Shown one piece after another: positions 3,768 to 12,249 of a stretch of DNA of 12,249 nt; positions within the stretch are counted from its first letter, which is position 1, and the number at the start of each line of letters is the position of its first letter. The notes under the pieces were generated by a model, which did no database searches, was not told the origin of the DNA, and saw only the letters and a program-made list of their open reading frames with translations. This DNA is from Alphaproteobacteria bacterium. GTDB taxonomy: Bacteria; Pseudomonadota; Alphaproteobacteria; Sphingomonadales; Sphingomonadaceae. Where the stretch lies: contig JAQGLH010000313.1 of NCBI GenBank assembly GCA_028293005.1, positions 1 to 12,249 on the forward strand, written 5' to 3'. The position numbers and the translations under genes were made by a program.

Positions 3768-4400
3768 ATGTCGGCAGTGGCAAAGGTGAAGAGCGTGGCC
3801 AACAGGATCGTGTGCAGTCTCAGCGCGGCAATCGCTTTGTCGTTGGCGACCACGTCGGCGACGCAGGCGCAGATGTTTTCGGACGGCTTCAGCTTCCTCA
3901 AGGCGGTCAAGGAACGCGACGGTGAAAAGGCGACCAGCCTGGTCTCGACGCCCGGCTCGGTCGTGATCAACACCAAGGACCGAAGCACCGGCAACGGGGC
4001 GCTTCATATGCTGGCGCGCGAGCGTGACCTCACCTGGCTGAGTTTCCTGCTGGGCAAGGGCGCCAAGCCCGACCTCCAGAACAACCAGGGAGATACGCCG
4101 CTCGCGGTGGCGACGCAGGTCGGCTGGGTCGACGGCGCCGAGCAGCTGATCAGGATGGGCGCTTCGGTCGATCTTCCCAACGGCCGCGGCGAGACGCCGC
4201 TGATCCTCGCGGTCCACAATCGAGACGTGCCAATGGTGCGCCTCCTGCTCAACAGCGGCGCGAACCCGACGCGCTCGGACAGCGTCGCCGGCTATTCGGC
4301 GCTCGATTATGCCCGCCAAGACGGGCGCTCTTCGGCCGTTCTCAAGCTGATCGAAGCCAAGCAAGCGGCAAAGGCGACGATTGCGGGGCCGAAGCTTTAA
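3768..4400 (+). CDS. Exported ankyrin-repeat protein
   Basis: A 210-residue protein with a signal peptide (hydrophobic run about residues 14-30, cleavage expected after ATQA near 34) and about four ankyrin repeats over residues 74-196, with units such as GALHMLARERDLTWLSFLL, GDTPLAVATQVGWVDGAEQL and GETPLILAVHNRDVPMVRLL. Ankyrin repeats are protein-binding scaffolds; the partner is not evident and there is no catalytic domain. Start choice is uncertain: the ATG at 3768 has little Shine-Dalgarno sequence, whereas a GTG at 3795 is preceded by AGGTGA at 5 bp and would give a more typical signal peptide. It is divergent from the SCO gene across 74 bp, so the two may share regulation and a periplasmic setting. 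It converges on mmcB. Confidence 0.88.
   Translation: MSAVAKVKSVANRIVCSLSAAIALSLATTSATQAQMFSDGFSFLKAVKERDGEKATSLVSTPGSVVINTKDRSTGNGALHMLARERDLTWLSFLLGKGAKPDLQNNQGDTPLAVATQVGWVDGAEQLIRMGASVDLPNGRGETPLILAVHNRDVPMVRLLLNSGANPTRSDSVAGYSALDYARQDGRSSAVLKLIEAKQAAKATIAGPKL
3784..3789 (+). promoter_or_regulatory. Candidate ribosome binding site for the alternative GTG start at 3795
   Basis: AGGTGA followed by a 5-bp spacer and GTG at 3795. It lies inside the first codons of the ankyrin-protein frame and is a better ribosome-binding context than that of the ATG at 3768, so it may mark the true start. Confidence 0.4.
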
Positions 4401-9294: not shown

Positions 9295-10140
9295 TCATGA
9301 CGTCAACAACGCGCGCAGCTCGGCGTCGTACGCGCGCGGCGGGGCGCAGCCGAACAACAAGGCGAAGGCGAGTGCCGCCTGGCCGACCAGCATCTCGAGC
9401 CCGTCGATGGCGCGCAGCCCCCGCTTTCGCGCCGCGACAAGCAAAGCGGTCTCGAGCGGCGCATAGACCATGTCGAACACCGCAACCCCGGGATCGGCGA
9501 TCGCAGCGACGTGCCTGAGCACAGCCTCGGGCATTGCCGCCTGGCCGGACATGCCGAGCGTGGTCGCGTTGACGATCAGCTCGGCGCCGAGCAATCCGTC
9601 GCGATCGTCGACCGCGCCCACCCTTCCATCGAGTCCGCTTTCTGCCAGCAGCCGTTCGCCCTTCGCCTGGTCGCGCACATTGAGCGCGACATGCGACACC
9701 GCGAGCAGTCGGAACGCCGCCAGCGCCGCCAGCGCCGCGCCGCCCGATCCGATCAGGCAGACTCGCGTCGCCCGCGCCGGGAGGATCGACAGCGCATCGA
9801 TGATTCCGCCGACATCGCTGTTGTCGCCGGCCAGCGCGCCCTGGACGGCGACGATGGTGTTGACCGCGCCCACCGCCTGCGCGCCCTCGCTCAGCCGGTC
9901 GAGCGAGGCCATCACCGTCTGCTTGTGCGGGACGGTGACGTTGCACCCGCGCCAGGCGGGATCGGCACGACGCTCCGCGAAAAAAGCCTCAAGCCCGTCC
10001 GGCGGGACTCGCGTCGCGCGATAGTCGCCTTCGAGCCCGAGGCGGGACAGCCAGAATTTGTGGATCAGCGGCGATTTCGAATGGCTGATCGGATCGCCGA
10101 TCACCTCCGCGTAAGAGGGTGCGGTGCGAGAAGCAGCCAT
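9295..10140 (-). CDS. aroE: Shikimate dehydrogenase (NADP+)
   Basis: Reduces 3-dehydroshikimate to shikimate in aromatic amino acid synthesis, in the cytosol. The 281-residue length is standard. Substrate-site residues: SHSKSPLIH (19-27), catalytic K73 in VTVPHK, N94 in GAVNTI and D109 in GDNSDVGG. The NADP-binding glycine loop is IGSGGAA (130-136) and the C-terminal end carries DGLEMLVGQAALAF. The sequence NSDVGG differs from the more common NTDG at the catalytic Asp, although the Asp itself is kept. The start ATG shares one base with the maf stop (TGATG), showing translational coupling; coaE follows after 10 bp. Confidence 0.96.
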   Translation of the reverse strand: MAASRTAPSYAEVIGDPISHSKSPLIHKFWLSRLGLEGDYRATRVPPDGLEAFFAERRADPAWRGCNVTVPHKQTVMASLDRLSEGAQAVGAVNTIVAVQGALAGDNSDVGGIIDALSILPARATRVCLIGSGGAALAALAAFRLLAVSHVALNVRDQAKGERLLAESGLDGRVGAVDDRDGLLGAELIVNATTLGMSGQAAMPEAVLRHVAAIADPGVAVFDMVYAPLETALLVAARKRGLRAIDGLEMLVGQAALAFALLFGCAPPRAYDAELRALLTS

Positions 10141-10733
10141 CAGCGCGGCACCACGCCGCGCTCGCGCAGATACTCGAGCAAAGGCAGCAACGGCAGGCCG
10201 AGGATGGCGAAATGGCTTCCTTCGATGCGATCGAACAATTGCACCCCGAGCCCTTCGATCCGGTAGCCGCCGACATTGTGGCGGATCGCATCATATTCCC
10301 GGTCGAGGTAAGAAGAGAGGAAATCGTCGCTGAACCGCCGGACTCCGAGCTCGACGCTCTCGACTGCGCGCCACGCGACCGCGCCGCGCTCGACGATCAC
10401 CGCGGCCGCATGCAATCGATGACGGTGCCCGGAAAGTCCGCGCAGCTGCGCCGCCGCTTCATCGATCGAGCGGGGCTTGTCGATCATGCTGCCGTCGTGG
10501 CGCTCGAGCGTCTGATCGCAGCCGAGCACGAGCTCGTCGGCCGCGGCGGTTGCTTGCGCGGCCTTCAGCTCGGCGAGCGCGAGCGCAAGCGCGGCGGCAT
10601 CGAGCCCTTCCTCGCGTAGCCGCGCCTTGGCCTTGTCCTCGTCGACCGTTGCCGGACGGACCTCGAACGGCACCCCCGCCGCCTCGAGCATCCGGCGCCG
10701 CGTCCCGCTCGCGGAGGCAAGCGTCAGCCTCAT
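10140..10733 (-). CDS. Maf family nucleotide pyrophosphatase
   Basis: Nucleoside triphosphate pyrophosphatase of the Maf family, thought to hydrolyse non-canonical or modified NTPs and linked to septum formation. The 197-residue protein has the N-terminal phosphate-binding motif LASASGTRRRML (5-16), the VDEDKAK segment (30-36), GCDQTL with D73 and IDKPRS (84-89), and GGYRIEGLG near 155-163. The DQ after LGC resembles the YceF (m7GTP) branch more than the YhdE (dTTP/UTP) branch, but this is weak evidence. The ATG at 10733 forms an ATGA overlap with the ppsR stop; the frame continues upstream through ppsR but without meaning. The stop overlaps the aroE start. Confidence 0.93.
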   Translation of the reverse strand: MRLTLASASGTRRRMLEAAGVPFEVRPATVDEDKAKARLREEGLDAAALALALAELKAAQATAAADELVLGCDQTLERHDGSMIDKPRSIDEAAAQLRGLSGHRHRLHAAAVIVERGAVAWRAVESVELGVRRFSDDFLSSYLDREYDAIRHNVGGYRIEGLGVQLFDRIEGSHFAILGLPLLPLLEYLRERGVVPR

Positions 10734-11554
10734 CCGCCGCTCGCCGAGTCCATCCGCTCGTTGCACAATTTGACGATCGCGAACGCCGTTTCCTCGATCG
10801 ATCGGCGCGTGACGTCGATCACAGGCCACCCATTGTCGGCGAACATCCGGCGCGCGAAGGCAAGCTCCGCCTTGACCGCCTCCGCGTCGACATAATCGGT
10901 CTCGGGCGCCTGATTGAGCGACAGCAAGCGGTTCCGGCGAACCTGGATCAGCCGATCGGGGCCGGTGGTCAGCCCGACGACGAGCGGATGCCTGAGCGAA
11001 TAGAGCGTCTTGGGCGGCGGCGATTCCGGGACAAGCGGAATGTTGGCGACCTTGTAGCCGCGGTTCGCAAGATAGATCGAGGTCGGCGTCTTCGAGGTGC
11101 GCGAGACCCCCGCAAGCACGATGTCGGCTTCTTCCCAATGGTCCGAGCCGATGCCGTCGTCATGCGCGATCGTATATTGGATCGCATCGACTCTCGCGAA
11201 ATAAGCGGCGTCGAGCGCATGCTGGCGTCCCGGCCTGGCTTTGGCTTCCTGGCCGAGCACTGCCGACAAGGCATCGACGACCGGGTCGAGCGCCGAGACG
11301 GCGTGGATCCCGCGCCGCCGGCATTTGCGCTCGAGATCACGGCGGATATTGCTGTTCACCAACGTGTAGAGGACGAGCCCGGGGCGCCGCTCGATATCGT
11401 CGAGGACGCGGTCGAGATGGCCTTCCGAGCGAACCATCGGCCAGAAGTGGCGCAGCACGTCGACCTCGTCGAACTGGGCAAGACAGGCAGTCGCGACCAC
11501 CTCGAGCGTCTCACCGGTTGAGTCGGACAGGAGGTGGAGATGGAGCCGGCTCAT
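10730..11554 (-). CDS. ppsR: Pyruvate, water dikinase regulatory protein (PPSR/DUF299)
   Basis: Bifunctional serine/threonine kinase and phosphorylase of the DUF299 family. It inactivates PEP synthase, or pyruvate phosphate dikinase, by ADP-dependent phosphorylation and reactivates it by phosphorolysis. The 274-residue length is typical. Visible are the start HLLSDSTGET (7-16) and the P-loop-like nucleotide site GVSRTSKTPTSIYLA (149-163), followed by the NIPLVPE segment. Which dikinase it controls cannot be told, as neither gene is in the window. It is the first gene of the minus-strand cluster and starts beside the putative origin, so its promoter must lie within that region. No Shine-Dalgarno is visible before the ATG at 11554. 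In alphaproteobacteria this family (RP001 in Rickettsia) characteristically borders oriC. Confidence 0.95.
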   Translation of the reverse strand: MSRLHLHLLSDSTGETLEVVATACLAQFDEVDVLRHFWPMVRSEGHLDRVLDDIERRPGLVLYTLVNSNIRRDLERKCRRRGIHAVSALDPVVDALSAVLGQEAKARPGRQHALDAAYFARVDAIQYTIAHDDGIGSDHWEEADIVLAGVSRTSKTPTSIYLANRGYKVANIPLVPESPPPKTLYSLRHPLVVGLTTGPDRLIQVRRNRLLSLNQAPETDYVDAEAVKAELAFARRMFADNGWPVIDVTRRSIEETAFAIVKLCNERMDSASGG

Positions 11555-11567
11555 CGCGCGGACGGGC

Positions 11568-11576
11568 TGTGGAAAA
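11568..11576 (-). promoter_or_regulatory. DnaA-box-like site 1
   Basis: Minus strand TTTTCCACA, 8 of 9 matches to TTATCCACA. It lies 14 bp from the ppsR start codon, so DnaA bound here could also affect ppsR expression. Confidence 0.5.
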
Positions 11577-11646
11577 CCATGTTGAAAGCGCTAGCGGAAG
11601 TCTCGGGATGCTTTCAAGAAAAGGATTCCTCCCCGCTGTTCGGATT

Positions 11647-11655
11647 CAATCCACA
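11647..11655 (+). promoter_or_regulatory. DnaA-box-like site 2
   Basis: Plus strand CAATCCACA, 7 of 9 matches to TTATCCACA with the conserved TCCACA core. It overlaps the last base of a GATTC methylation site (11643-11647). Confidence 0.45.
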
Positions 11656-11689
11656 GATCGACAAAGTCTGAAAAGTTCCATCCCCAGGC

Positions 11690-11698
11690 TGTGGATTG
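11690..11698 (-). promoter_or_regulatory. DnaA-box-like site 3
   Basis: Minus strand CAATCCACA, identical to site 2 and inverted to it with 34 bp between. The identity extends to the 10-mer CAATCCACAG. It lies between TCCCC (11681-11685) and GGGGA (11700-11704), a short flanking inverted repeat. Confidence 0.45.
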
Positions 11699-11814
11699 CG
11701 GGGAAAAAATGCGCGAATCCGCGGCTGCCCGTGGGCCCCTGGGAGTCAAGCTGTTTGCAAAATTCGGTGAAGCCAATAAACCCCGGCTTCCGTCGCCCAA
11801 CAACCTTCATCAGA

Positions 11815-11848
11815 CTCTCTTATATAAGACTCTTATAGTTTAAGAGAG
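11815..11848. repeat. AT-rich nested inverted repeats upstream of hemE
   Basis: CTCTCTTA (11815-11822) pairs with TAAGAGAG (11841-11848). Inside are a perfect 12-bp palindrome TCTTATATAAGA (11818-11829) and a second stem CTCTTA/TAAGAG (11830-11835 with 11841-11846, loop TAGTT). The block is far richer in A and T than its surroundings and ends 18 bp before the hemE start. It could be a DNA unwinding element, part of the hemE promoter (TATAGT at 11834-11839 resembles a -10), or both. Confidence 0.55.
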
Positions 11849-11866
11849 CGGAGCCCCAGGCTTTCC

Positions 11867-12249
11867 ATGCCCAATTCGAACAAGCTCCTGCTCACCGTAT
11901 TAAGAGGCGGGAAAGTCGAGAGAAAACCTGTTTGGCTGATGCGCCAAGCCGGACGATATCTTCCCGAATACCGCGCGTTGAGAGAAGCCAAGGGCGGCTT
12001 CCTGGACCTCGTCTACGATCCCGATGCAGCCGCTGAAATCACGCTCCAGCCGATCCGGCGGTTCGGCTTCGACGGCGCTATCCTGTTCTCCGATATCCTG
12101 ATCGTGCCGCATGCAATGGGTCAGGATCTGCGTTTCGAGGCCGGCGAAGGACCGCGTCTGTCCCCGCGTCTCGTCGATGCGCGCCTCGACGCGTTGAGCT
12201 CGGTGCCGAGCCGACTCGATCCGATTTTCGAGACTGTGGAGAAGGTCAA
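11867..12249 (+). CDS. hemE: Uroporphyrinogen decarboxylase, 3' end outside window
   Basis: Converts uroporphyrinogen III to coproporphyrinogen III in haem synthesis, in the cytosol. The frame runs from the ATG at 11867 to the window end without a stop, giving 127 complete codons of a protein normally about 340-350 residues long. The family signature is clear: PVWLMRQAGRYLPEYR at residues 21-36, with substrate-binding arginines R26 and R30, and FSDILIVPHAMG with the catalytic D76. An AGG nine bases before the ATG is a weak ribosome binding site. It is the only gene on its side of the candidate origin and is transcribed away from it, as hemE is in Caulobacter. Confidence 0.95.
   Translation, partial: MPNSNKLLLTVLRGGKVERKPVWLMRQAGRYLPEYRALREAKGGFLDLVYDPDAAAEITLQPIRRFGFDGAILFSDILIVPHAMGQDLRFEAGEGPRLSPRLVDARLDALSSVPSRLDPIFETVEKV

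Follow-up and report, generated by a model that had tools for sequence, protein, structure and literature searches.

The intergenic gap between ppsR and hemE in the analysed stretch of DNA (12,249 nt, here termed the window) is very probably a chromosomal origin of replication (oriC) of the hemE-type of Alphaproteobacteria. This assignment rests on the gene context, the positions of DnaA boxes in 81 gaps, the nearness of parS and a position opposite to the terminus, and the same lines of evidence support an earlier sequence-only reading of this DNA, in which a likely chromosomal oriC next to hemE was proposed. The hemE-type origin is already known in the class and predicted for Sphingomonadaceae. 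It was experimentally established in Caulobacter and predicted in Rickettsia, and both origins lie, as the earlier reading had stated, in the same gene context of hemE and COG1806, which equals ppsR (PMC1914354). For Sphingopyxis granuli, and in DoriC for most Sphingomonadaceae, oriC was predicted beside hemE (PMC4741004), and the same placement was predicted for Novosphingobium PP1Y (PMC4059872). The least ordinary detail of the gap is a cluster of GANTC sites, i.e., of unusually dense likely methylation sites. Judged by its sequence, the host of the window is sphingomonad-like and Sphingosinicella-like; the nearest PpsR proteins, among the matches listed, show 87-89% identity and are encoded in genomes of Sphingosinicella and Sphingomonas and in a MAG assigned to Proteobacteria.

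Gene context of the gap

The non-coding gap between ppsR (DUF299) and hemE was confirmed, and both flanking genes were assigned to families (Table 1). The run of minus-strand genes leftward from 11554 was also found, although it comprises eleven consecutive genes and not twelve as had been counted: ppsR, maf, aroE, coaE, dnaQ and an S30AE gene, followed by PTS EIIA, 4HBT, DUF1491, cell-wall hydrolase and mmcB-like genes. Left of the mmcB-like gene, a plus-strand ankyrin-repeat gene (3768-4400) breaks the run; beyond it lie three genes on the minus strand and, at 2-1930, one for a PBP on the plus strand. An Rfam search of the window returned no match.

Table 1. Features of the putative origin and its flanks in the window
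Feature	Position	Strand	Remarks
ppsR (kinase/pyrophosphorylase, PF03618)	10730..11554	minus	left flank of the gap
Putative oriC, ppsR/hemE divergent intergenic gap	11555..11866	none	312 bp
DnaA box P1, TTTTCCACA	11568..11576	minus	8/9
GANTC (GATTC)	11624..11628	none	kept in 22/81 gaps
GANTC (GATTC)	11643..11647	none	one base common with P2; kept in 43/81 gaps
DnaA box P2, CAATCCACA	11647..11655	plus	7/9
Degenerate DnaA box P3, CCATCCCCA	11678..11686	plus	6/9; facing P4
DnaA box P4, CAATCCACA	11690..11698	minus	7/9
Near-invariant GANTC (GAATC), likely CcrM methylation site	11715..11719	none	kept within 2 bases in 78/81 gaps
GANTC (GAGTC)	11743..11747	none	left edge of conserved 16-mer; kept in 45/81 gaps
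Conserved block GTCAAGCTGTTTGCAA	11745..11760	plus	possible IHF-like bend site or part of a hemE promoter
Conserved block AATAAACCCCG	11775..11785	plus	mostly constant distance from 11745-11760 block
Trinucleotide-like stretch CAACAACCTTCATCAG	11798..11813	plus	weak in window
GANTC (GACTC)	11813..11817	none	edge of AT-rich block; kept in 16/81 gaps
AT-rich block, likely unwinding element	11814..11847	none	lowest-GC 30-mers of window
GANTC (GACTC)	11828..11832	none	inside AT-rich block; kept in 14/81 gaps
hemE (URO-D, PF01208)	11867..12247	plus	right flank; incomplete, continues past window end

Of 499 loci whose PpsR is a close relative, the best 80 were compared, and in every one of them hemE lies divergently across the gap from ppsR, with gap lengths of 271-507 bp. 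In a class-wide sample, ppsR was found in 68 of 115 genomes and the upstream stretches of 40 of these were fetched (PpsR 47-58% identical), while 28 were left out by choice (two belong to close relatives, some lie at the end of a contig, and the rest were dropped for no particular reason). Within these 40 stretches, hemE is divergent at a distance of up to 1.1 kb in 38 and at 1.6 kb in one, and none was found within 2 kb in the remaining one. On the hemE side of one of the closest loci (L002), hemE is accompanied by UPF0093, rho, terC, dienelactone hydrolase, mnmE, mnmG and gidB genes, and much of this gene set is familiar from alphaproteobacterial origins.

A ppsR match was absent in 15 of 298 genomes from the family of one relative (G005), 13 of these 15 having sizes of 1.9-2.8 Mb, which may reflect incomplete assembly or a real loss at the origin. 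Two genomes (G293 and G202) carry two ppsR matches each; the pair in G293 is equally good, located on different contigs and might stem from assembly duplicates.

DnaA boxes in the window and in related gaps

The sequence-only reading had described one 8/9 match to the DnaA box and an inverted pair of identical 7/9 matches, and all three were recovered (starting at 11568, 11647 and 11690). P2 and P4 are each contained in one arm of a perfect inverted repeat of 10 nt (11647-11656 and 11689-11698), and the motif GCGGGGA follows the facing pair P3/P4. The gap alone contains three matches with at most two mismatches in 312 bp compared to 0.22 expected (Poisson P 0.0016), and the whole window shows no excess with 12 such matches compared to 8.8 expected. 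Judged without the relatives, the boxes of the window are thus only modestly unexpected, and it is the relatives that provide the strong evidence.

For this comparison the window and the best 80 of the 499 loci were combined to 81 gaps with 26,413 bp in total; all counts over these gaps derive from related species and do not represent 81 independent events. The perfect box TTATCCACA occurs 58 times in the 26,413 bp of the gaps versus six times in 1,533,801 bp of their flanks, i.e., it is about 560-fold denser, and it is present in 37 of the 81 gaps. At a background of 0.5%, a match of at least 7/9 was found at the P1 position in 68 gaps (9/9 in 23), at the P2 position in 53, at the P3 position in 43 (9/9 in 13; the copy of the window is below this threshold) and at the P4 position in 71 (9/9 in 11). 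The three boxes of the window fall on three of these recurring positions. A lack of conservation of the 9-mers in close relatives had been named beforehand as an observation that would speak against an origin; over the 81 gaps, the positions are kept. A single gap (L060) contains no box with one mismatch or less.

Among the closest loci, L001-L003 carry TTTTCCACA at the first box position, as does the window, while L004, L005, L006 and L010 carry the perfect TTATCCACA there, L004 also at the fourth position; neither the window nor L001-L003 has a perfect box in the gap. As close loci possess the perfect box at the same position, the weak boxes of the window seem to be a lineage-specific variant of a common architecture, and the dependence on other initiators that had been considered earlier is not needed. 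The Caulobacter origin was shown to function with weak DnaA boxes (PMC4468827).

Two further 8/9 DnaA-like sequences on the minus strand of the window, TGATCCACA inside aroE (10059-10067) and TTCTCCACA inside hemE (12235-12243), are probably due to chance. In the relatives, close pairs of perfect boxes were also detected outside the gap, with spacings of 18 bp (G002:C61), 23 bp (G007:C5) and 441 bp (G006:C2). All three were considered as rival origins; the pairs in G002:C61 and G007:C5 show no origin-type neighbourhood, judged by reading the ORFs around them. Between P1 and P2 lies a palindromic GCTAGC (11590-11595), which is found in 36 of the 81 gaps and is 24-fold enriched over the flanks.

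Position on the chromosome

The parS sequence is the ParB site and is normally located near origins. A search for exact TGTTNCACGTGNAACA in nine whole genomes of relatives yielded two to three sites per genome in eight of them, 17 in total. Each of the 17 lies on the hemE side, at 5.6-9.6 kb when measured from where the gap borders ppsR; the two exact sites of G225 are 7.6-9.6 kb away. An exact parS is absent from the ninth genome, which is a MAG.

GC skew does not decide on the position of the origin. Three relatives were sampled in 76 stretches of 20 kb, and the skew, both raw and third-codon-position corrected, is weak, close to zero and inconsistent, being mildly in favour of the gap as origin in G003, uninformative in G008 and against it in G005, and no switch of GC skew was seen in the 400 kb around the gap of G225.

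The strand-polar octamer of the GGGNAGGG type, which we take to be KOPS, was mapped in the genomes of five relatives and is sparse near the origin. Using rounded genome lengths and contigs that are not known to be complete chromosomes, with the second contig of G225 appended in an assumed order and orientation, and leaving aside a single hit that fell on the second G145 contig, the best switch of octamer polarity was placed at a distance from the gap of 89 kb in G225, 104 kb in G145, 214 kb in G182, 404 kb in G258 and 586 kb in G057, the log-likelihood dropping by 5.4 in G258 and by 3.7 in G057. In G225 the gap is inside the support interval of the switch, and the local octamer minimum in the 400-kb view is 142 kb away. 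The distances of the gap from the antipode of the octamer-defined terminus are 60 kb (G225), 15 kb (G145), 95 kb (G182), 36 kb (G258) and 192 kb (G057), resulting in a combined P of 3e-4 if the five genomes were independent, which is optimistic as they are related. For G008 and G213, among the matches listed, the polarity was judged by eye only. Octamer polarity is mixed among these genomes and supports the position of the gap without pinpointing it. The dnaA gene is away from the gap, by 0.95 Mb in G225 and 0.31 Mb in G145, and it was likewise reported that dnaA of Sphingomonadales is not beside the origin (PMC8116508).

AT-rich block and conserved elements

The AT-rich block that had been noted in the gap holds the lowest-GC 30-mers of the whole window, of which eight begin at 11812-11819 (23-27% GC). 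The lowest-GC 312-bp stretch begins at 11572, and the gap region is the most AT-rich one within the 12,249-nt window. From left to right, P1, P2, P3/P4, the GANTC at 11715, the conserved elements at 11743-11760 and 11775-11785, the trinucleotides, the AT-rich block and hemE follow each other.

The extended conserved element GAGTCAAGCTGTTTGCAA spans 11743-11760, and the sequence GTCAAGCTGTTNGCAA is found exactly in 29 of the 81 gaps and not once in 1.53 Mb of flanks. The block at 11745-11760 may be an IHF-like bend site or part of the hemE promoter: by eye, the 16-mer resembles an IHF site with one to two mismatches, and the full IHF consensus is present in none of the 81 gaps.

The stretch at 11798-11813 represents possible deviant DnaA-trios, weak in the window, which scores two of six. 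Summed over the 81 gaps, the trio score is 214 compared to a mean of 164.4 and a maximum of 181 in 300 shuffles; as the rule behind the score, which counts C[AT][AC] over six triplets, was picked after viewing the alignment, i.e., post hoc, this excess is only suggestive. Inspected by eye, many relatives have a degenerate box that a GC-rich spacer separates from trinucleotides, and the AT-rich block comes next. This box, P5, reaches at least 7/9 in only 13 of the 81 gaps and scores 3/9 in the window.

GANTC sites and methylation

The gap of the window contains six GANTC sites, a number that was reached by 12 of 5000 shuffles; the sites at 11813 and 11828 are both part of a 15-bp repeat. Over the window and the best 80 of the 499 loci, 430 GANTC were counted in the 81 gaps versus 119.4 in shuffles, with at least two in every gap. 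Per 300 bp, the gaps contain 4.92 sites on average versus 0.89 in 752 GC-matched flank windows. Compared with 238 other intergenic stretches of 200-600 bp, the density is about five-fold higher (16.3/kb versus 3.58/kb), and five or more sites occur in 44 of the 81 gaps versus five of the 238 control stretches; a weakness of this control is that it rests on a crude, purpose-made gene finder. In the 38 gaps of the class-wide sample the density is 5.9/kb versus 16.3/kb in the sphingomonad-type gaps. The near-invariant site at 11715 reads GAATC in 49 and GACTC in 29 of the 81 gaps, so that the middle base varies and the methylation pattern is constant, which is what conservation of the methylase site as such should produce.

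All nine genomes of relatives contain a match to GcrA and a RAMA-domain protein. Two of these RAMA-domain proteins were checked and gave near-full-length matches to CcrM, which stayed under a cut-off tuned to Caulobacter. In one locus (L223 in G182), the ccrM-like gene adjoins a dihydropteroate synthase gene. In Sphingomonas sp. AAP5, GANTC was reported to outnumber the other methylated motifs by a wide margin (PMC8067484). In a literature search of open papers, none of the titles and passages listed dealt with GANTC in chromosomal origins of Sphingomonadales.

Alternative explanations

If the gap were only the divergent promoter region of ppsR and hemE, with conserved blocks that are regulatory and an origin elsewhere, the blocks GTTNGCAA and ATAANCCC, which keep a mostly constant distance, could be the hemE promoter, and it would fit that GC skew does not indicate the gap. 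We regard this as extremely improbable in view of the roughly 560-fold density of perfect DnaA boxes in the gaps over the flanks, of parS, every exact copy of which lies beside the gap in eight of nine genomes, and of the hemE-ppsR pairing, which holds for 38 of the 40 class-wide loci; a scan of 11300-12000 for sigma-70 promoters and terminators found none. The weak boxes might also mark an ancestral origin that decayed in the lineage of the window while initiation relocated, and the window and L001-L003 are indeed without a perfect box in the gap, unlike L004-L006. This is very unlikely, given that in G225, which gave the top PpsR match (88%) among the genomes drawn from the G005 family, parS is found 7.6-9.6 kb and the octamer switch 89 kb away from the gap, and that the working origin of Caulobacter has weak boxes as well (PMC4468827).

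With the gap read as oriC, the role of the GANTC cluster is a separate matter. There is about an even chance that the cluster serves only GcrA/CcrM control of ppsR, of hemE or of an origin-borne transcript and not initiation. GcrA works at promoters bearing methylated GANTC (PMC8116508) and is matched in all nine genomes, Caulobacter without ccrM shows a normal, wild-type-like DNA-content profile (PMC3973325), and a transcript starts within the Caulobacter origin Cori, in which a promoter was called essential for replication (PMC4287350). However, ordinary promoter use fails to explain the GANTC density, as other intergenic stretches (200-600 bp), delimited by the crude gene finder, reach 3.6/kb versus 16.3/kb in the gaps. 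It was also considered that initiation in Sphingomonadales is gated by CcrM methylation of the GANTC cluster, with unwinding on deviant trios that lack the central adenine. We judge this combination to be unlikely, the estimate having been lowered because CcrM was concluded to be dispensable for control of initiation in Caulobacter; over-expression of CcrM was reported to result in extra chromosomes (PMC3973325).

Proposed course of initiation

In the course of events that we infer, which includes all protein steps, the bend site, the reading of the trios and the effect of methylation, DnaA-ATP would bind to the left-hand boxes P1 and P2 and to the facing pair P3/P4, each being weaker than the consensus. 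The element at 11745-11760, perhaps by an IHF-type bend, would move the DnaA complex toward the hemE side, where a DnaA filament could engage the trinucleotide stretch at 11798-11813. Thereby, the AT-rich block at 11814-11847 would be opened, helicases would be loaded and two forks would depart. Passage of the forks would leave the GANTC sites hemimethylated, which could mark an origin that has fired.

The origin of an environmental sphingomonad lineage would be placed from sequence alone, and an origin can be found by box positions, parS nearness and the GANTC cluster in cases where GC skew is of no help. If GANTC acts on initiation, this would show how the timing of an alphaproteobacterial origin can work without CtrA; the dense GANTC cluster, in which one near-invariant site separates the boxes from the region of unwinding, would sense the passage of the fork, provided that the gating is true.

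Comparison with known origins

Cori of Caulobacter crescentus is similar to the gap in its location between hemE and the COG1806/DUF299 gene (CC0001 origin) and in its AT-rich part (PMC1914354), in its few and weak DnaA boxes (PMC4468827) and in the several GANTC sites that this origin and those of closely related species were reported to contain (PMC3973325). It differs in its length of 404 bp versus 312 bp in the window and in its five CtrA sites (TTAAN7TTAA), of which the window has none and which are found in three of the 81 gaps. The gap of the window does not conform to the CtrA-controlled Cori type. In Sphingomonas melonis, the loss of ctrA left growth and viability unaffected (PMC8116508), and the rarity of CtrA sites in the gaps is in line with a dispensable ctrA in this species. 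The Rickettsia origin has the same hemE/COG1806 flanks but differs by an AT content of about 82% and by two or more CtrA sites in the species named (PMC1914354). The origin of the sphingomonad Sphingopyxis granuli TFA is likewise adjacent to hemE, with conserved DnaA boxes and a putative unwinding element; this oriC is a prediction, and GANTC and trinucleotide motifs go unmentioned in the passages that describe it (PMC4741004).

The BUS unwinding module of the Bacillus subtilis type consists of a DnaA box, a spacer of up to 16 bp and at least three NAN trios, and deviant DnaA-trios were suspected in the same study (PMC8287927). The order of degenerate box, GC-rich spacer and trinucleotides that was seen by eye in many relatives is BUS-like. 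Unlike in BUS, the triplet of the relatives often reads CAA instead of CTA on the top strand, so that such triplets lack the central adenine that the published trio has, and in the window the trinucleotides are poor and the well-matched boxes are about 100 bp off.

The origins of the repABC replicons of Alphaproteobacteria are also rich in GANTC (PMC6090056), but these depend on the plasmid-type initiator RepC, in contrast to the DnaA-box origin of chromosomal type that the gap of the window would represent. Dense palindromic sites for adenine methylation are also a feature of oriC from E. coli with its Dam/SeqA system. There GATC is used, whereas the sphingomonad gaps contain GANTC, and GATC is found in the gaps at 3.9/kb versus 11.2/kb in the flanks.
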